Source of the DNA: a virus
Length of the DNA stretch: 20,360 nt
Virus record (IMG/VR): IMGVR_UViG_3300010885_000661
Location: 1 to 20,360 of that record
Strand: one strand, 5' to 3'
The position numbers were made by a program, and so were the translations under genes. Below, piece by piece: positions 1 to 17,781 of this stretch (the first letter of the stretch is position 1; each line of letters opens with the position of its first letter). Below the pieces are notes generated by a model. It saw only the letters and a list, made by a program, of their open reading frames with translations. It did no database searches and had not been told where the DNA came from.

Positions 1-1
1 C

Positions 2-34
2 AATATGCGCGTGGCCGGTAAGAAGAAGGGATAG
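2..34 (+). CDS. C-terminal end of an upstream gene (partial)
   Basis: An open frame entering from the left edge ends at TAG 32-34 and reads NMRVAGKKKG. Its position a few bases before the next start, and its basic tail, suit the last residues of the preceding gene. In this gene order that could be the terminase large subunit, but ten residues cannot identify it. The AGAAGGGA stretch inside it (about 23-32) probably serves as the ribosome binding site of the gene at 38. Confidence 0.35.
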   Translation, partial: NMRVAGKKKG

Positions 35-37
35 CTA

Positions 38-894: not shown

Positions 895-1442
895 AGCACT
901 TCTACGAGGAGATCGAGGGCTGGTTCCAGTTCTCAAAGCCGTACCTTGAAGCCGTCGCGTCAGCTCGCGACGGTGCCGTGTTTGTCGAGCTTGGCTGCTG
1001 GAAGGGGCGATCCGCATCCTTCATGGGCGTCGAGATCGTCAACTCCGGCAAGGCTATCGAGTTCAACTGCGTCGACCACTGGAAGGGCAGCGACGAGGTC
1101 CACCTCGCCGATCCCGAGATTAAGAACGTCGCGAAGATATTTCGCGCCAACATGAAGCGCATCGACGGTCTGAACCTCGTCATCCACCGGGGCGAAAGCC
1201 CAGCCGCAGCCGAGAAGTTCGCCGACGAGAGCTGCGACTTTGTCTGGATCGACGCCGGTCACGACTACGCCTCGGTTCTGGCGGATATTAATGCGTGGCT
1301 CCCGAAGGTGAAGCGCGGTGGCGTGATCGGTGGCGACGACTACCCTATGGACGGCGTGGGGCAAGCTGTGAGAGAAGTATTCCCGAAACCAGAGATCGGC
1401 ACAGAACGTGGCTGGTCATGGTGGCGCGTCCGAAAGGTATAG
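891..1442 (+). CDS. Class I SAM-dependent methyltransferase
   Basis: This 183-aa protein has a class I (Rossmann) methyltransferase layout. The SAM-binding motif I is VELGCWKGRS at about 32-41. An acidic residue follows in VDHW (61-64), consistent with ribose binding. FVWIDAGHDY (117-126) and the post-strand GGVIGGDDY (143-151) follow in order. This arrangement matches the Methyltransf_24 group, which often modifies sugars or small molecules. The start is GTG 891, overlapping the previous stop (GTGA), and the length fits a stand-alone domain. Its coupling to a glycosyltransferase suggests it methylates a sugar added by that enzyme, or another surface or DNA modification. The substrate cannot be told from the sequence. 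Confidence 0.82.
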   Translation: MKHFYEEIEGWFQFSKPYLEAVASARDGAVFVELGCWKGRSASFMGVEIVNSGKAIEFNCVDHWKGSDEVHLADPEIKNVAKIFRANMKRIDGLNLVIHRGESPAAAEKFADESCDFVWIDAGHDYASVLADINAWLPKVKRGGVIGGDDYPMDGVGQAVREVFPKPEIGTERGWSWWRVRKV

Positions 1443-1446
1443 GCAC

Positions 1447-3714
1447 ATGATTAACGAAGCAGCACTCGGTGGGTACGATCCAGAGATGATCCCGCAGCGC
1501 GTCCTGAACGACGACAGCGGTATGCTCGTACCTACGCCCGACCAGCCGATGGACGAGGATGACTTCCGATATCGCGTCCGGCAGGCAATCGAGGACTGCG
1601 CAACCTATATCGACAGCTACATCGCGCCGGATCGCGAGACGGCGATGAACTACTACCTCGGCAATCTGTTCGGGAATGAGGAAGCTGGTCGCTCTCAGGT
1701 CGTGATGACCGAGGTGCGCGATACAGTTCTCGCCATGATGCCGAGCCTGCTGCGCATCTTTGTAGGCGGCACGAAGACGCTCGAGTTCGTCCCAAAGAGC
1801 GCTGAAGATGTCGAAGCCGCGGAGCAGATGACCGACCTCATCGACTACATCTTCTCCCAAGAGAATAACGGTTTCCGTATCCTGCACGACGCCATGAAGG
1901 ACGCGCTGATCCTGAAGGATGGCGTCCTGACGTGGTACGTGCGGACGGACGAGACGGTCGAGGAGTACAACTACTCCGGCCTGTCGCAGGACGAGGCCGC
2001 GTTTATCTTGTCGCAGCCGGGTGTTGAGATGATCGAGATGGTCGAGCATATGTCGATGACGCAGATGCAGACCAACATCATCCCGATGGACCCGATGATG
2101 TCGATGCATCCGCCAACGATCTCGATGCGCGTGCGCCGCATTAACAAGACGCCGAAGTATGTCGTCGAGTGCATCCCGCCCGAGCAGTTCCTGATCGACA
2201 ACGAGGCACCGACAATCGACGAGGCTCTCATCGTCGGCAGACGCAAGCTCGCGACGGTGTCCGAGCTGGTGGCGATGGGCTACCCGCGTGATGTCATCGA
2301 GGAGAACGCAGGCTCTGGCGGCTTCGAGATGAACATGGAGACGCTCGCACGTAACCCGGCAGACCAGTCGTTCTTTGGTATTACGCAGGGCGCTGACGAG
2401 AGCACGGACAAGGTCTACTACGTCGAGGCGTACATCCGCATCGACAAGGACGGTGACGGTATCGCCGAGCTGCACAAGGTCTGCACGGTCGGGAACGGCG
2501 GGACCATACTCCACGACGAGATCGTGCAGCAGGCACCATTCGCGCTGCTGTCGCCCGATCCGACACCCCACACAATCTTCGGCAAGTCGATTGCCGATCA
2601 GACGATGGACTTGCAGCTCATCAAGTCTGCCATTGTCCGCAACACGCTCGACAGCCTCGCGCAGTCGATCCATCCGCGCACAGCCGTCGTCGAATCACAG
2701 GTCAACATGGACGACGTGATGAACAACGAGACGGGCGCAGTTATCCGTATGCGCTCGATGGGTGCCGTGCAGGCGCTCTCGACGCCGTTCGTCGGGCAAC
2801 CGGCTCTCGGGGTGCTCGCATACCTAGACGACGTGAAGACGCAGCGCACGGGCCTCTCACGGGCTTCGCAGGGGCTTGACGGTGACGTGTTGCAGTCAAC
2901 CACCCGCTCAGCCGTGCAGGCACAGCTTTCGTCGTCGCAGGAGCGCATCGAGATGATCGCTCGCCTGTTTGCTGACGGGTTGAAGCGCTGCTTCCAAGGA
3001 TTGCTGAAGCTCGTCGTGCAGCATCAGGACAAGCCGAAGATCATTCGCCTGCGCAACAAGTTCGTGCCAATCGACCCGCGCAGCTGGGATGCGAATATGG
3101 ACATGGTCGTCAATATCGCGCTTGGTCGCGGTTCAGACGACCAGCGTATGCTGTTCCTGATGCAGATACTCGCGCAGCAGAAGGAAGTGATCGAGAAATA
3201 CGGCCCGAATAACCCGCTCGTAGACTTGCAGCAGTACCGCAATACTCTCGCTCAGGTGATTCAGTTGTCCGGGTTCCAAGACCCGTCGCAGTTTGTGAAG
3301 GAAGTAGACCCGGCTGCGGTCGACGCGTATATGCAGCAGATGTCCCAGCAGCAGAAGCCGATGGACCCGACCGAGATGCTGGCTCAGGTTCAGGCGAAGC
3401 AGATCGAGGCAGACATCCTGATCGCTGCTGCAAAGCAGGAGCTGGAGACGAAGAAGGCGCAGGCAGACGCGGACTTCAAGCGCGATCAGCTCATGGTCGA
3501 CGCGATGCTCAAGGCGGCAGAGATCGAGGCGAAGTACGGATCACAGGTCAACATGGCCGTGATCAACGCTGAAGTGAACCGCCAGCGCACCGAGATACAG
3601 GAGATGTTCTCTCTCCAAGCGCAGCGCGAGCAGGCCATGCTGAATATGAACCAGATACCGCAACAGGCACCGGCACCGCAGATGATGCCGCCAATGCCAC
3701 CGCAGATGATGTGA
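1447..3714 (+). CDS. Portal protein (P22-like, short-tailed phage)
   Basis: The portal is the dodecameric ring at the capsid vertex through which DNA is packaged and ejected. At 755 aa this protein has the length of P22-type portals. It has an N-terminal helical region typical of portals (DRETAMNYYLGNLFGNEEAG, then MTEVRDTVLAMMPSLLRIF), a central wing rich in charged strands, and a stem/clip zone including RNTLDSLAQS and a Gln-rich stretch. The last 120 or so residues are Gln/Ala/Glu-rich and predicted coiled coil, ending in a Met/Pro tail (QMMPPMPPQMM); this suits the barrel that projects into the head. An in-frame GTG at 1408 would extend it into the methyltransferase gene, but ATG 1447, 4 bases past that gene's stop and after AAAGG, is the better start. 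Confidence 0.88.
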   Translation: MINEAALGGYDPEMIPQRVLNDDSGMLVPTPDQPMDEDDFRYRVRQAIEDCATYIDSYIAPDRETAMNYYLGNLFGNEEAGRSQVVMTEVRDTVLAMMPSLLRIFVGGTKTLEFVPKSAEDVEAAEQMTDLIDYIFSQENNGFRILHDAMKDALILKDGVLTWYVRTDETVEEYNYSGLSQDEAAFILSQPGVEMIEMVEHMSMTQMQTNIIPMDPMMSMHPPTISMRVRRINKTPKYVVECIPPEQFLIDNEAPTIDEALIVGRRKLATVSELVAMGYPRDVIEENAGSGGFEMNMETLARNPADQSFFGITQGADESTDKVYYVEAYIRIDKDGDGIAELHKVCTVGNGGTILHDEIVQQAPFALLSPDPTPHTIFGKSIADQTMDLQLIKSAIVRNTLDSLAQSIHPRTAVVESQVNMDDVMNNETGAVIRMRSMGAVQALSTPFVGQPALGVLAYLDDVKTQRTGLSRASQGLDGDVLQSTTRSAVQAQLSSSQERIEMIARLFADGLKRCFQGLLKLVVQHQDKPKIIRLRNKFVPIDPRSWDANMDMVVNIALGRGSDDQRMLFLMQILAQQKEVIEKYGPNNPLVDLQQYRNTLAQVIQLSGFQDPSQFVKEVDPAAVDAYMQQMSQQQKPMDPTEMLAQVQAKQIEADILIAAAKQELETKKAQADADFKRDQLMVDAMLKAAEIEAKYGSQVNMAVINAEVNRQRTEIQEMFSLQAQREQAMLNMNQIPQQAPAPQMMPPMPPQMM

Positions 3715-3724
3715 GGAGATAAGC

Positions 3725-5134
3725 ATGGCTGAACCGTATAACCCATATCAGGGCCAGACTGTATCACCATACGAGCCAACGTGGCGTGACCGCTTGGCGG
3801 CTATCATGCTTGGCGATAACCCATCATTCGACAAGCGCCGCTCTATTGAGGGTCTGGTAGGATCGTCCGGGCTTGGAAATACCGGATTCAGCTTGGCTGA
3901 CATGACCGGCGTAGGCGGATTGCTTGACGCGCAGCAGGAAGCGGCATCTGGAAATTATCAAAACGCTGCCATAGCTATTATGCCCGGAGCTGGGCCGTTG
4001 AAGAAGGCAACTACTAAAGGAGCGAAGGCAGTATCAAAAGCGGTTGATGCTATTATGCCAGAGCTTGGTACAAGATATCCAGCAAATGCGCCTCCGGTGT
4101 TAAAGGTCGACCCCAAAAGTGGTGTTGAGTACTTTTCTAAAACGCTTTCACCTGAAGCAGAGGCTCTTCAAAAATTACGTATTGCAGCGCAAAGAGAGGT
4201 AGATGTTGGAAATTATATTCCGTACTACGACGTTTCAAAACGCGCTGACGTAGACCCGGCAAATTATGGGTCTTATGTTGATACCAAAACGCTAAAGCCG
4301 GTAAGGCCGGATACGAAAGAAAAGTATCGGGCTATTGCCGAAGACCCGGCAGCTTTAGCTAGACTTGATGAGGGGTATGAGCGCGGGTTGTTACAAAAGA
4401 AAGACGCTGAAAACTGGTATTTTATGAAACAACTTGAAGATGATTTCATCAAAGAGTTGGGACCAGATGAAGGCCGAAAAATGTTTAAGGAGCGTTTTGC
4501 AGACGCTATGGCTGCAACAACCGGAGGCGCAGACCCAACAAGCAATCTGATGATGGCGCATTATGGTAATTATCGTAAGCAACAGGGCTTACCAATGCCA
4601 TCAGCATCATATGAGTTCCCGTTCCCTGTAGGCGGTCGATACGTCACAGGTAATATGGAGCAGTTTAAGAAAATGCTTATGGAAGGCGCTGGGGTAACAC
4701 CTGACAACCCAAAGAGATATAACTTCTCTGGTAACTTTTTAGGTAGAAAAGGCGCGACACTGGACGAACAAATGTCAGGTGCATTTGACCCGAAGATGGC
4801 AATGCCGCCGAAGGTTGCTTATGGCAGTTTTGAAGAAGCTCTCTCAAACCAAGCCGCTAAAAAGTATGGCGTGGACCCAAGATATTATCAGGAGGTTGCT
4901 TGGGCTGGTATCAAGGATGCCAAAACCAAAGGCGGGTTTAAGGCGCAACCAATGATCGGCATTGTCAATGAAGCGATTGCTCGTACAAGTAAAATCACCG
5001 GACTTTCGCCAGAAGAGGTAGTTCGTCGTGGCCTAGTTCGAGCAGAGATTCCATTGTATGGCGCTGCCGCTGCCGGTGCTGCCGGTGCCGGTTATGGGCT
5101 GCTCGGACAACCACAGGAAGATCAGGTTTATTAA
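3725..5134 (+). CDS. Probable virion-carried (ejected) protein with DUF7178-like C-terminal region
   Basis: A 469-aa protein of unknown function. Residues 1-105 hold a low-complexity N-terminus (YNPYQGQ), then GLVGSSGLGNTGFSLADMTG and an Ala/Gly segment with IMPGAGPLKKA. From memory, this layout recurs at the N-terminus of proteins ejected from short-tailed phages. Residues about 255-445 carry AATTGGADPTSNLMMAHYGN, YEFPFPVGGRYVTGN, QEVAWAGIKDAKTKGG and IVNEAIARTSKITGLSPEEV; these resemble what I recall as DUF7178 (not verified). The C-terminus has a short hydrophobic Ala/Gly stretch, LYGAAAAGAAGAGYGLL (444-460). Base composition is unlike its neighbours: several sampled 60-base lines are 38-47% GC, against up to 73% in the portal. 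This suggests recent transfer. A GAGG site precedes ATG 3725. No catalytic motif is recognised. Confidence 0.72.
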   Translation: MAEPYNPYQGQTVSPYEPTWRDRLAAIMLGDNPSFDKRRSIEGLVGSSGLGNTGFSLADMTGVGGLLDAQQEAASGNYQNAAIAIMPGAGPLKKATTKGAKAVSKAVDAIMPELGTRYPANAPPVLKVDPKSGVEYFSKTLSPEAEALQKLRIAAQREVDVGNYIPYYDVSKRADVDPANYGSYVDTKTLKPVRPDTKEKYRAIAEDPAALARLDEGYERGLLQKKDAENWYFMKQLEDDFIKELGPDEGRKMFKERFADAMAATTGGADPTSNLMMAHYGNYRKQQGLPMPSASYEFPFPVGGRYVTGNMEQFKKMLMEGAGVTPDNPKRYNFSGNFLGRKGATLDEQMSGAFDPKMAMPPKVAYGSFEEALSNQAAKKYGVDPRYYQEVAWAGIKDAKTKGGFKAQPMIGIVNEAIARTSKITGLSPEEVVRRGLVRAEIPLYGAAAAGAAGAGYGLLGQPQEDQVY

Positions 5135-5391
5135 TGACCCCGCACGAACTCGAAGACATCTACCGCGCCGCCACGTCTCTTGCGAGAGACAAGGCAACGG
5201 ACGAAGTGCTGCGTCGCATGGAGCAGTCGTATATCGAGAAATGGAAGATGTCGCACCCTGATCGGGGCGACGAGAGAGATGATGCGTACCGCATGGTCCG
5301 CGCCATAAGTGAGTTCAGAAACGAGCTAACTGCGCTGGCCGCAGAGCCGACTGTGACTGCTTTCAACCGCCGCTTGAAACGCGGCCCATAA
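5134..5391 (+). CDS. Small helical phage protein, function unknown
   Basis: This 85-aa charged, mostly helical protein (MEQSYIEKWKMSHPDRGDER; DDAYRMVRAISEFRNEL) has no recognised enzymatic motif. Its ATG shares one base with the TAA of the gene before it (TAATG), so it is likely co-translated. GC content returns to the phage norm here, so it probably belongs to the head module rather than to the AT-rich cargo gene. Small proteins at this place between portal and scaffold genes are frequent in SU10-like and related phages, but no role can be assigned. Coding is supported by the overlap and by composition. Confidence 0.65.
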   Translation: MTPHELEDIYRAATSLARDKATDEVLRRMEQSYIEKWKMSHPDRGDERDDAYRMVRAISEFRNELTALAAEPTVTAFNRRLKRGP

Positions 5392-5404: not shown

Positions 5405-6430
5405 ATGGTATCAGCCGAACAATCCCAAGGCGGGGAACTCGGTGTTGCAGAAGCAGCAGCGCAAATGGATGCCCTACTGGGAGCCAGAGATGGCCAACCC
5501 GAAGCACCCAAGAGAGCTAATGCCCCTGCCGAGGCTCCAGAGGCCGAGGCGTCGGGGTACGAAGGCGAAGAGACTGAATCGGATGGGGCCGACCCAGCGT
5601 ATGACGCTGCCCCGGAAGGTGAAGAGCCGGAGTACTCCGAGGATACCGAAGGCGCGGACACGGAACCGCTTCCGCTTGACGCACTCGTCACCGTTAAGAT
5701 TAACGGCAAGACTGAGAACATCACGCTGAAGGAGGCTCTCGAAGGCTACCAACGGAACTCCGATTACACGAGGAAGACGCAGGCGCTAAAGCAGGAGGTG
5801 CAGACCTTCGCGCAGGAGCGCCAGCAAGTGGAAGTGGAGAGGCAGCAGTACGGGCAGCTCATTAATGCGCTGCACCAACAGCTACAGCAATTCGCGCCGC
5901 AGGAACCCAACTGGGAACAACTGCATCGCGATGACCCGCTCAACTTCCCAATCGTCGAGAAGCAGTGGCGAGACTATAAGGAGCGCGTGGCTGCGACAGG
6001 AGCCGAGCGCGAACGTATGGCCCACATTGCATCTCAGCAGGAGCAGGCGCAGCTTCAGCACATGGTCGAGCGTGGTAGGGAATACCTGTTCGACAAGGTG
6101 CCGGAGTGGAAAGACGCGCAGAAGTGGAACGAGGCAAGGAGCAGGCTTCGCGACTATGGCCAGAAGGTTGGCTATACGGACGAGGAACTCGGAGCTGCAT
6201 ACGATCCACGGGCGATCTTGGTGCTTGATAAAGCGAGACGCTATGACGCGATAATGGCCAATCGTCCCAAGCCAGACCAGTCTGCCGGGCCGAAGCCAAT
6301 GCGTTCAGGCACTATCTCAAACACTCCACGCGCAGCGACGGAAATCTCTCGTGCAAAGGATCGTCTCAGTAAAACCGGTAGCGTCGACGACGCTGCTAAA
6401 CTTTTTGGACTTCTCGACAGGAGAAAATAG
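5405..6430 (+). CDS. Scaffolding protein
   Basis: This protein directs capsid assembly inside the procapsid and is then lost. It is 341 aa, strongly acidic and Ala/Glu/Pro-rich in residues 1-90. A conserved-looking segment follows (VTVKINGKTENITLKEALEG, about 95-114, then YQRNSDYTRKTQALKQEVQ) and then a long Gln/Glu coiled coil (about 125-165). The C-terminus is more basic (about 285-341) and ends LFGLLDRRK, as expected for a capsid-binding helix. Its place directly before the major capsid gene and the acidic-helix-basic layout are typical of scaffolds. GGGAG lies upstream of ATG 5405. The ribosome binding site of the capsid gene lies inside its last codons. Confidence 0.82.
   Translation: MVSAEQSQGGELGVAEAAAQMDALLGARDGQPEAPKRANAPAEAPEAEASGYEGEETESDGADPAYDAAPEGEEPEYSEDTEGADTEPLPLDALVTVKINGKTENITLKEALEGYQRNSDYTRKTQALKQEVQTFAQERQQVEVERQQYGQLINALHQQLQQFAPQEPNWEQLHRDDPLNFPIVEKQWRDYKERVAATGAERERMAHIASQQEQAQLQHMVERGREYLFDKVPEWKDAQKWNEARSRLRDYGQKVGYTDEELGAAYDPRAILVLDKARRYDAIMANRPKPDQSAGPKPMRSGTISNTPRAATEISRAKDRLSKTGSVDDAAKLFGLLDRRK
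6419..6424 (+). promoter_or_regulatory. Ribosome binding site of the major capsid gene
   Basis: AGGAGA lies eight bases before ATG 6433, overlapping the final codons of the scaffold gene. It is a strong Shine-Dalgarno match at good spacing, as expected for the most highly expressed virion protein. Confidence 0.75.
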
Positions 6431-9645: not shown

Positions 9646-11049
9646 ATGGCCGATAGCTATACCGCAAACCTCAACCTGACGAAGCCGGAGGTCGGTGCGT
9701 CACGGGATACGTGGGGTACGAAGACAAACGCAGACTGGGACACGGTAGACGCGCTGTTCACTGCCGCAGGGACCGGCACCTCGGTCGGGCTAAACGTCGG
9801 CTCGGGCAAGACGCTGGCTGTCGCGGGGACGCTATCTCTCACGGGTTCACTGAACGGTGGCGGGACCATCAATAACGTCGCGATTGGCGGAACGACGGCT
9901 GCGGCTGGTACGTTCACGACTGTGACTGCGACGACTGTGGCTGCGACGACTGGTAATATAACAACGGTCAACGCTCCGACCGTGGTTGGCGGGAGCGCCG
10001 TATCATCCACGCTGACGCTTAAATCGACGTCCGGTATCGGTACGTCCGACAGCATCGCGCTAAAGGTCGGCAATAACGGTGCGACCACGGCGATGACCGC
10101 TAATACAAATGGGAATATCGAGTTTGGGGCAGGCACTGCGGCATTGCCAGCGATCACCACGACTGGCGACACCAATACGGGTGTATTTTACCCCGCCGCA
10201 GATACGGTAGGCGTAGCTACTGGTGGCACTGAAAAAGTCCGCGTTGCATCAGCAGGCCAAATCGGCATTGGTGGAGCCAACTACGGCACATCTGGTCAGG
10301 TATTAACATCAGGTGGTTCTGCTGCGGCTCCATCTTGGACTACTGTGTCGGCAATAGGTCGACTTCTCCGTGCTCCACAAATTATTACATCAGGAACATC
10401 ATACACAACACCAGCAGAGTGTACGTTCATAATGGTAACGGGATTTGGCGGCGGCGGTGGCGGCGGGGGCGGCTGTAGGGCTAGTACTACAGGGAACCTA
10501 AATGGCGGTGGCGGCGGGGGTGCGGGTGCTCAATTTCAAGCTAATATAACTGTCTCTCCAAGCACAGCATATACTATATCAGTCGGAGCAGGAGGTGCAG
10601 CAGGACTAGGAAGAACTGGTTCTACTGGATCAGGAACCGCTGGAGGTGATGGTGGCAATACATCTATAATTGTAAGTGCGGTAACTTATCAAGCTGGGCA
10701 AGGCACAGGTGGAGGCGGTGGAGCTAATAGTAGTACAACAGGTGCAGCTTCAGGACTAGGTGGATTAGCGACTCCAACAGCTTCACTAGTACTTTATGGC
10801 AATGGGCTTCCTCGAACTGTTACCAATAGGAATGTTAACGGTACTGGTCAAAATGGTTACGCAATGAGATTTGGGTTTTATGATAATGATGGTGGTGATG
10901 GTGGTGCTGCTAGTACTGCTGGTGCAGTCGGTGTTGGATATTCAGCCGGTGGTGGCGGCGGCGGTGCTCATGCTAATGCTAATCAAAACGGCTCTGATGG
11001 TGCTGCTGGCAATGGTGGAGCATTAATAATTACGGAGTACGCATTATGA
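9646..11049 (+). CDS. Tail fibre / receptor-binding protein with glycine-rich tip
   Basis: This 467-aa protein probably contacts the host receptor. The N-terminus (NLNLTKPEVGASRDTWGTKT, then NADWDTVDALF) matches a common virion-anchoring module of phage fibres. Residues about 45-240 are a Thr/Gly/Ala-rich beta shaft with fibre-like segments such as TLTLKSTSGIGTSD and GQIGIGGANYGTSGQVLTSG. From about residue 243 the protein is a glycine-rich domain with long Gly runs, VSPSTAYTISVGAGGAAG and an ending ALIITEYAL, like the polyglycine-rich tips of phage adhesins. Base composition drops from the phage norm to about 40% GC from about position 10370 on, inside the gene, pointing to an exchanged tip domain. 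AGGAGA precedes ATG 9646. The downstream 64-aa gene overlaps by ATGA. Confidence 0.85.
   Translation: MADSYTANLNLTKPEVGASRDTWGTKTNADWDTVDALFTAAGTGTSVGLNVGSGKTLAVAGTLSLTGSLNGGGTINNVAIGGTTAAAGTFTTVTATTVAATTGNITTVNAPTVVGGSAVSSTLTLKSTSGIGTSDSIALKVGNNGATTAMTANTNGNIEFGAGTAALPAITTTGDTNTGVFYPAADTVGVATGGTEKVRVASAGQIGIGGANYGTSGQVLTSGGSAAAPSWTTVSAIGRLLRAPQIITSGTSYTTPAECTFIMVTGFGGGGGGGGGCRASTTGNLNGGGGGGAGAQFQANITVSPSTAYTISVGAGGAAGLGRTGSTGSGTAGGDGGNTSIIVSAVTYQAGQGTGGGGGANSSTTGAASGLGGLATPTASLVLYGNGLPRTVTNRNVNGTGQNGYAMRFGFYDNDGGDGGAASTAGAVGVGYSAGGGGGGAHANANQNGSDGAAGNGGALIITEYAL
9916..9953 (+). repeat. 15-bp tandem repeat in the fibre shaft
   Basis: Two and a half copies of ACGACTGTGRCTGCG encode a Thr-Thr-Val pentapeptide repeat in the fibre shaft. 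Copy-number change would keep the reading frame and alter shaft length. Confidence 0.6.
10447..10473 (+). repeat. GGN tract encoding nine glycines (first of two)
   Basis: A run of GGC/GGT/GGG codons encodes an uninterrupted glycine stretch at the start of the fibre tip. A second, similar tract lies at 10504-10527. Both sit in otherwise AT-rich DNA. They are prone to codon-sized slippage and rich in G runs. Confidence 0.65.
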
Positions 11050-16600: not shown

Positions 16601-17116
16601 ATGAGCATACTCAGCGACATTGGTTCAATGTTTAGTGGCAATTCCGGTGACGTTCGCTCCAATATGGCGGGTGGAGCCGCTGGTGGATACAGCAACACAT
16701 ATGGCCCGTACGGGAACATGAGCCGAGCCGATTACCGTGACCAGTACGGCGGTCGTGATCGCGCACCCGTAGATCGCTCAGACGGTCAGGGTGACGGTCA
16801 AGGCGGCAAAGCAAAGCCAAAGACCATCGACGAGCTGATGGCTGAGTTCGACGTGTCGCAGTACGTTCCGACCGCACCGGCGACAAGCTATATGCCATTC
16901 TACAACGCAATACCGCTGGACTACGCCAACACCGCGGGGCCGCAGTCACCGGCGCTCGGGATGGATTACGGCCAGATGGTGCAGCAGTCGCTTCTAGCAG
17001 CGCCGCAGCCGTCTATGCCGTCCGGTATCCTCGGCCCGTCAGTGCAGTCGCAGACGCCTCTCACGGCACCGATCAGCTATGAGGACTTCCTGCGCTACTA
17101 CCGCGGTGGTGTCTGA
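16601..17116 (+). CDS. Uncharacterised virion-region protein, Gly/Tyr/Pro-rich
   Basis: This 171-aa protein is of unknown function. GGAGAG lies just before ATG 16601. A longer in-frame version from 16529 would overlap the preceding gene and is unlikely. It is low-complexity at first (SNMAGGAAGGYSNTYGPYGN), then basic and Gly-rich (DGQGDGQGGKAKPKT), with a short helical segment TIDELMAEFDVSQY. It ends in a Pro/Gln-rich region and ISYEDFLRYYRGGV. No domain is recognised. Its TGA shares a base with the start of the M15 gene (TGATG), so the two are probably produced together. Such disordered linkers are common in internal virion proteins. Confidence 0.65.
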   Translation: MSILSDIGSMFSGNSGDVRSNMAGGAAGGYSNTYGPYGNMSRADYRDQYGGRDRAPVDRSDGQGDGQGGKAKPKTIDELMAEFDVSQYVPTAPATSYMPFYNAIPLDYANTAGPQSPALGMDYGQMVQQSLLAAPQPSMPSGILGPSVQSQTPLTAPISYEDFLRYYRGGV

Positions 17117-17781
17117 TGGACCCAAAGCTCCAAGCAATACTCGACCAGATTTTGGCAAGCTATCCCAAGGTGCGCCTGACATCGGGCTATCGCTCGCCTG
17201 AGCAGAACGCCGCCGCCGGTGGAGCTAAGGGATCGCAACACCTTCACGGTAATGCGGCAGACTTGAACCTCAGCGCATACTCGCCGGAGGAGCAGGCGCA
17301 GATCGCCGAAGCGTTGCGCAAGGCTGGCGCGACGGGTTTCGGGTTCTACCCAAAGAGCGGCTCGCTACACGCAGACATCGGCACGCCGCGCTACTGGGGG
17401 CCGAACTACTCGAAGACGTCTCTCCCTGACACGCCAGCGTGGTTCCAACAGTTCGCCGGTATACAAGGTCCGATTGCTCCAACTGCCTCTGGCACTACGC
17501 AGATGGCGTCAGCACAACCCGTATACGCGCAAGACCTTGCCACGACGATGCGCCTGATCGGCAGCAAGATCGCGCCGGGGTCTATCGACGCACCCGTGCC
17601 TATGACGCCGGAGCAGCAGGCTGCGTCCAAGGTGCAGCAGGGCCGGATCGCGGATGCGGGTAAGTCGTTCGCGCAGCTCGCGGCGCTGTCGGCGCAGCGG
17701 GATCCGGTAGAGATGCTGCGGCAATTCGATTTCCAGAGGCGTAAGCCTCCGGTGCTACAATACCCTCGCGGACTGCTTTAA
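17116..17781 (+). CDS. Peptidase M15 domain protein (virion-associated peptidoglycan peptidase)
   Basis: Residues 1-95 form an M15-type D,D-peptidase domain. The sequence has VRLTSGYRSPEQN, the zinc motif SQHLHGNAADL (S40, H42, G45, A47, D49) and a second His in LHADIG (H85-x-D87), so the expected His/Asp/His zinc ligands are all present. Such enzymes cut peptidoglycan cross-bridges. The C-terminal 115 residues are a Pro/Gln/Ala-rich extension with helices (MTPEQQAASKVQQGRIADAG; FAQLAALSAQRDPVEMLRQ) that is not needed for catalysis and probably anchors it in the virion. Its place among internal protein genes, far from the lysis cassette, argues for a role at entry rather than at lysis. A second lysis enzyme is the alternative. 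Confidence 0.82.
   Translation: MDPKLQAILDQILASYPKVRLTSGYRSPEQNAAAGGAKGSQHLHGNAADLNLSAYSPEEQAQIAEALRKAGATGFGFYPKSGSLHADIGTPRYWGPNYSKTSLPDTPAWFQQFAGIQGPIAPTASGTTQMASAQPVYAQDLATTMRLIGSKIAPGSIDAPVPMTPEQQAASKVQQGRIADAGKSFAQLAALSAQRDPVEMLRQFDFQRRKPPVLQYPRGLL

Follow-up and report, generated by a model that had tools for sequence, protein, structure and literature searches.

The DNA analysed here (the window) comprises 20,360 bases of an uncultured virus record. Because portal, scaffold and SU10-type major capsid protein genes are present, we assign it, judging by these head genes, to an SU10/LUZ24-like podovirus. Among the head genes lies an uninterrupted ORF for a protein of 469 residues, hereafter the cargo gene, which is preceded by its own GAGGAG site; at this position, the ~10-bp spacer differs in relatives that lack the gene (Table 1). 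The initial annotation had placed the cargo gene between two normal head genes, and portal and scaffold genes do flank it, but an ORF of 85 residues intervenes before the scaffold gene. We refer to the interval between the portal gene and this ORF as the portal-scaffold slot; in relatives whose slot is empty, homologues of the 85-residue ORF lie directly 3’ of the portal gene. The low GC content reported by the initial annotation was borne out, as the cargo gene has a GC content of 48.7% (GC3 0.42) compared with 59.3% (GC3 0.80) in the portal gene, and the lowest-GC 1071-bp stretch of the contig begins at position 3946, within the cargo gene. The foreign composition is mainly that of the portion behind the N-terminal module (N-module, residues 1-93), which has a near-native GC content of 55%, whereas the C-terminal domain (C-domain) has a GC content of 46.8% and a GC3 of 0.39. 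As had also been anticipated, the protein is not named by any library searched directly, with no match in Pfam, PHROG, NCBIfam or INPHARED.

Table 1. Features of the portal-scaffold slot and its surroundings in the window.
Feature	Position	Strand	Basis and remarks
Slot 1, left flank	1..37	+	Matches the stretch immediately preceding the N-module gene in L011 and L015
Portal gene, SU10-type	1408..3714	+	PF23899, 8e-198; left border of the slot
GAGGAG, ribosome-binding-like, for cargo gene	3713..3718	+	Sequence; overlaps portal stop codon
Cargo gene, 469 aa	3725..5134	+	ORF list; ATG start; absent or replaced in near-identical relatives
N-module, residues 1-93: WRDRLA...KRRSIEGLVGSSGLG...DMTGVGGLLDAQ...GNYQNAA...MPG	3725..4003	+	Shared N-terminus, iterated profile; proposed head-loading tag
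Exchanged block	4006..5077	+	blastn: no similarity to L010, L011 or L012 inside; flanks highly identical
C-domain, residues 110-445, DUF7178 superfamily (very probable)	4052..5059	+	Profile and fold; predicted all-helical except two short strands
Motif TTGGADPTSNLMMAHYGN, residues 265-282	4517..4570	+	Near-invariant, 43 relatives
Motif PKRYNFSGNFLG...LDEQM, residues 329-350	4709..4774	+	Aspartate 347 common to superfamily
Motif QEVAWAG, residues 389-395	4889..4909	+	QxxxW common to superfamily
Conserved C-tail AGAGYGLLGQPQEDQVY and stop	5078..5134	+	Survives domain swap (blastn)
85-aa ORF	5134..5391	+	Start codon overlaps cargo stop codon; right border of the slot
Scaffold gene	5405..6430	+	phrog_3927, 2e-58

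Relatives from IMG/VR were aligned to the window by blastn. One of them (L010) is 94% identical to the window up to position 4005 and 91% identical from position 5078, and is unalignable in between; it encodes a 542-residue protein that retains the N-module and the final 18 residues around a different middle domain, a very distant homologue of the window’s own. Two further relatives (L011 and L012) have identical breakpoints. In a fourth (L015), identity of 96% extends up to position 3716 and resumes from position 5134, and the entire cargo gene is exchanged for a gene encoding a 422-residue ART-PolyVal-like protein (PF18760, E 1.3e-4, which is under the family’s gathering score). When the portal was used as the query of a scan, 49 loci were obtained, most of which have an empty slot, with the 85-residue ORF located directly, or ~10 bp, after the portal gene. 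The slot is empty in L099 and L100, whose portals are 98% identical to that of the window, and in the annotated isolates phiM5, LUZ24 and HTVC106P, which have the same gene order; phiM5 is a related phage with an annotated particle proteome. Other occupants include a methyltransferase gene that has neither the N-module nor the GLL-containing tail (L108:3419-4081, L109:5701-6363 and L113:2245-2913) and, in the Microcystis phage isolate MJing1 (OQ540923), a DUF7178 homologue (record positions 30667-32181) located beside a methyltransferase-like gene. As close relatives have the slot empty or refilled at its exact ends, the cargo gene is accessory and occupies a slot with precise borders. Residues ~95-450 of its product are an imported domain. 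We are close to certain that this is modular exchange, in which a domain or a whole gene is swapped between near-identical phages and is sometimes missing. The initial annotation had envisaged a gene swapped in as a unit, composed of an N-terminal packaging tag and an exchangeable C-terminal part. The exchange is real, and other C-domains do follow the identical N-terminus in the portal-scaffold interval of relatives, but sometimes only the middle domain moves and sometimes the entire gene does, and the constant N-module is retained along with a short tail at the C-terminus. Homologues of normal composition in all relatives, which it had named as evidence against its proposal, are not what the comparison returned, the slot often being empty.

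These data bear on two alternative explanations. The first is that unrelated AT-rich sequence was joined into the head operon by an error of metagenome assembly or binning; the window does come from an uncultured virus record, and no second contig with exactly its junction was found. However, the reading frame is unbroken from the N-module through the domain to the C-tail, the same architecture with another domain occurs in separate IMG/VR datasets (L010, L011, L012 and L098), and a homologue occupies this interval in an isolate, MJing1; together, these findings render an artefact extremely improbable. The second is that the protein is an accessory to head assembly or structure (a minor capsid protein, a portal-associated protein or a protein of the internal core) and that its central domain has diversified through neutral change. 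Its location between portal and scaffold would suit such a role, as would the spacing seen in several lineages, where the C-domain gene begins only 2-11 bp past a recognisable portal gene (L001, L017, L021, L087 and L010); at most A-family loci, no portal of SU10 type was seen close by. We nevertheless regard a structural role as improbable, as the gene is missing from near-identical phages, can be replaced by one encoding an ART-like protein, and has central parts of foreign composition that include domains filed elsewhere as effectors.

The N-module is not confined to the portal-scaffold slot. It precedes other domains in L010, L011, L012, L013 and L015, and it also opens a gene at a second site, slot 1, which is located upstream of a glycosyltransferase gene. 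At slot 1, the N-module is joined to a phrog_30118-type domain in L011 and L013 and to another unnamed domain in L015, and L011 has two N-module genes simultaneously. Slot 1 is empty in the window, because its left flank joins the glycosyltransferase gene directly. In a more distant phage (L114 and L115; E 6e-19) the N-module is positioned ahead of a GNAT acetyltransferase. The compositional difference between the two parts of the protein recurs: in the window lineage, every C-domain checked is more AT-rich than its N-module, with GC contents of 46-51% for the C-domains and 55-62% for the N-modules, and L115 differs likewise at a lower GC level (42% versus 54%). When a profile of residues 1-93 was iterated across the ORFs of all sequences examined, with a loose inclusion threshold (E 0.02), it returned 21 distinct sequences including the window, 15 of which belong to proteins carrying one or the other of the two DUF7178-type domains, and the remainder are mostly slot-1 and GNAT genes. 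The matched regions are mainly N-termini or linkers, in agreement with the earlier suggestion of a recurrent N-terminal module. AlphaFold predicts the N-module with low confidence, and no N-module was found elsewhere in two records whose slot is empty (L100 and L107). The slot-1 payload of L011 (L011:996-1970, C-domain 1281-1970; phrog_30118-like, KGPNGLDYIPATTGGS...) is without a Pfam name, although IMG/VR contains at least 219 relatives, many of them embedded in proteins of at least 1000 residues.

A scan of IMG/VR with our first C-domain alignment (A2) identified 161 relatives located behind many differing N-termini. In a 43-member alignment (A4) the patterned motifs that the initial annotation had noticed in the C-terminal half are genuine and near-invariant. 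Compared using hhalign, A4 matches both the domain family of L010 (97.6%, E 4e-12) and the MJing1 protein (98.1%, E 7e-14), the latter of which clears the Pfam cut-off for DUF7178 (PF23802; 29.1 bits versus 27). The profile-profile match to the divergent Salinibacter protein by itself was not significant, and the PF23802 gathering cut-off is not reached within the family itself, the window protein giving no match and five of the 43 relatives matching only at E >= 0.012. In the AlphaFold model the C-domain has pLDDT values that are mostly >90, and a Foldseek search of BFVD with this model retrieved phage proteins, among them A0A2I6UH43 (TMt 0.65, rmsd 5.0, prob 1.00) and G8EYE9 (TMt 0.61). The matches include, at TMt 0.65, a 202-residue protein encoded by Salinibacter phage M31CR41-2; a 202-residue CDS of that phage, tied to the BFVD protein by its length, scores 1e-22 on PF23802. 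Searching the C-terminal part separately by profile and by structure, as had been proposed, thus points to the DUF7178 superfamily, and based on the profile-profile and predicted fold comparisons we consider this membership very probable. The superfamily core consists of a PKxxxF..N..G......D block followed by QxxxW. Single-domain DUF7178 proteins share this core and are ~200 residues in length, whereas the window’s C-domain spans ~340 residues, has extra conserved blocks and is accompanied by the N-module. The shared aspartate block and the QxxxW motif could form an active or binding site, and the conserved polar motifs make catalysis plausible, at roughly even odds.

No solved structure in the PDB matches the C-domain by sequence and none is convincing by fold; among the 50 matches listed for the window model, 8a5c has the top TMt (0.34) and is weak at E 2.3. 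A TIDxH-like motif in DUF7178 and this weak match to EndoIII had prompted the idea of a HhH/EndoIII-like DNA glycosylase fold, which we do not put forward, as no glycosylase is present among the 50 matches listed for the sister-domain model. Few genomes in GTDB contain the C-domain (two MAG contigs), a search of IMG/VR with the Salinibacter protein as the query found no DUF7178 singletons, and no paper on the superfamily was found in the literature searched.

In L002 the C-domain is part of a fusion with ART-PolyVal-like and PBECR5 domains, it also occurs within a SleB-type polyvalent protein of 1385 residues, and L245 has it fused to the same domain that L011 has as its slot-1 cargo. The last of these fusions suggests that the portal-scaffold slot and slot 1 feed one pathway. 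For polyvalent proteins with such domains, packaging and injection have been argued from domain and gene context (PMC5512222). The window system resembles these proteins (Iyer et al. 2017) in its ART-PolyVal, PBECR5 and GNAT company and in its virion-gene neighbourhood, the cargo gene being encoded among virion genes between portal and scaffold. Polyvalent proteins are multidomain and contain at least two disparate effector domains, as do the relatives in L002 and L245, whereas only a single payload domain can be recognised in the window protein, and in its lineage payloads are swapped singly in slots behind a constant N-module. A second likeness is to the internal proteins of phage T4, in which a short shared N-terminal tag loads diverse payloads, including one with an anti-restriction function, and to T4 Alt, an injected ADP-ribosyltransferase head protein (PMC9026906). 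Like IPI, IPII, IPIII and Alt with their capsid targeting sequence (CTS), the window system has a constant N-terminal segment before divergent payloads. However, the T4 CTS contains ~10 residues and is cut by gp21, whereas the window’s candidate tag contains ~93 residues and belongs to an unrelated podovirus head; the annotations of the head genes revealed no obvious prohead protease. MuF-domain toxins and N4-type virion RNA polymerases similarly join a virion-targeting region to an enzymatic domain (PMC5512222), a resemblance in principle only, as a Pfam search found no MuF or RNAP domain in the window protein.

The best reading of these data is that the cargo protein is a virion-delivered modular effector, which would follow the same principle as the T4 internal proteins. 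The cargo gene is one occupant of an accessory slot within the head-gene operon that characterises this podovirus lineage of SU10/LUZ24 type, and its product would be made late, together with portal and scaffold. The N-module would then bring the protein into the procapsid, perhaps aided by the short GLL-containing C-tail, the protein would exit the head with the DNA, and, once inside the next host cell, the C-domain would work as an effector against that host or its defences. We assign this whole chain a probability of about 0.63. Packaging and injection, taken by themselves, are marginally more probable and are inferred from the gene’s position, its ART, GNAT and PBECR5 company and the shared N-module. 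Position alone does not prove packaging, because the methyltransferase genes found in the slot are devoid of the N-module and the tail. These genes, together with the dispensability of the cargo gene, would also fit a moron, i.e. an accessory gene that works inside the cell late in infection, for example against competing phages or defences, whose product is never packaged and for which the slot is no more than a place where insertions are tolerated. We think a moron unlikely, as it does not account for a ~93-residue N-module and a tail that are retained around a changing domain, for the reuse of the N-module at a second slot, or for the fusion of the C-domain into polyvalent proteins. Virion-delivered modular effectors are already known as a kind; new here are the long shared module, the base-resolution domain replacement, the two slots and the DUF7178-type payload.

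A more specific form of the virion-delivered effector reading, which we advance tentatively and consider somewhat doubtful, is that the N-module and a lineage-typical GLL tail together form a general head-loading and ejection tag, between the halves of which foreign domains would be captured by recombination, at two slots and with single domains exchanged in turn; GLL is also carried by some of the other putative virion proteins and by the C-terminus of the scaffold. The tail of the cargo protein (GAGYGLLGQPQEDQVY) resembles that of the unrelated ART occupant of L015 (AAGYGLLGAQDQ...), and their synonymous codons differ. GLL is likewise located close to the C-terminus in the slot-1 cargoes, in the products of both MJing1 accessory genes, and in the M15 peptidase and scaffold of the window. 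The motif GLL[DGSAQE] is enriched at the termini of the two DUF7178-type sets (16 of 25 and 8 of 38 sequences, versus 1.5 and 0.9 in shuffles). It is nearly missing at the C-termini of an independent cargo family (1 of 24), which rules out GLL as a universal cargo tail; for this reason it is at most a lineage-specific mark and, having been noticed post hoc, a lead. Comparing GLL with the presence of an SU10/LUZ24-type head gave 5/5 versus 15/55 (Fisher p 0.003), a post hoc choice of comparison that includes many truncated loci, and a scan for ART proteins, intended as an independent test of the tail, produced only three loci, too few to use.

Several further termini were recorded. The window scaffold ends in ...DDAAKLFGLLDRRK, and its relatives have a DAAxLFxxLL(D) pattern with variable residues. 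That the cargo GLL copies the scaffold sequence FGLLDRRK was set aside except as a lead, as the scaffold glycine is unconserved (EAFLD, IKALL, GKLL). An M15-type peptidase encoded at positions 17116-17781 (PF08291) terminates in ...QYPRGLL, and SLT-type hydrolases in L175 and L184 terminate in ...RPAGLLG and ...RPRGLLD, respectively; a terminal GLL motif is possibly common to virion hydrolases. Two different proteins of one contig (L079:1248-3332 and L079:4590-6062) have a common tail, GLLDDDKDYT(S/T)IDI(V/I)GGRR, and polyvalent proteins of other lineages (L017, L021, L258, L262, L030 and L238) have tails of the GGxxVDRALMLxSRxA or SFCARM...LRKWxC types. Terminal tags may be lineage-specific.

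To our knowledge, virion-loading tags have been described in few systems, T4 being one, and because payloads are also diverse, injected phage effectors are hard to spot. Near-identical phages in which one slot is empty or variously filled behind a single N-terminus constitute a natural experiment, which singles out what stays constant as the candidate tag and what varies as the candidate effector. Should this tag prove functional, it could be used to search uncultured phages for proteins that act against hosts or their defences and to load proteins into podovirus heads, and it would suggest a role for the DUF7178 superfamily.

Other genes of the window and its relatives also deserve mention. 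A tail-fibre-like gene (9646-11049; GC3 0.41) has a glycine-rich C-terminal part of low GC content, and its nucleotide identity to L010 ends after ~10097; this part is a second exchanged module and probably forms the receptor-binding tip. The glycosyltransferase gene (38-721) and a methyltransferase gene (891-1442) are located within the head-gene cluster before the portal gene and are kept in close relatives, two of which (L096:245-802 and L095:1-324) have a serine-recombinase-like gene and an HNH-like gene immediately before the terminase gene.
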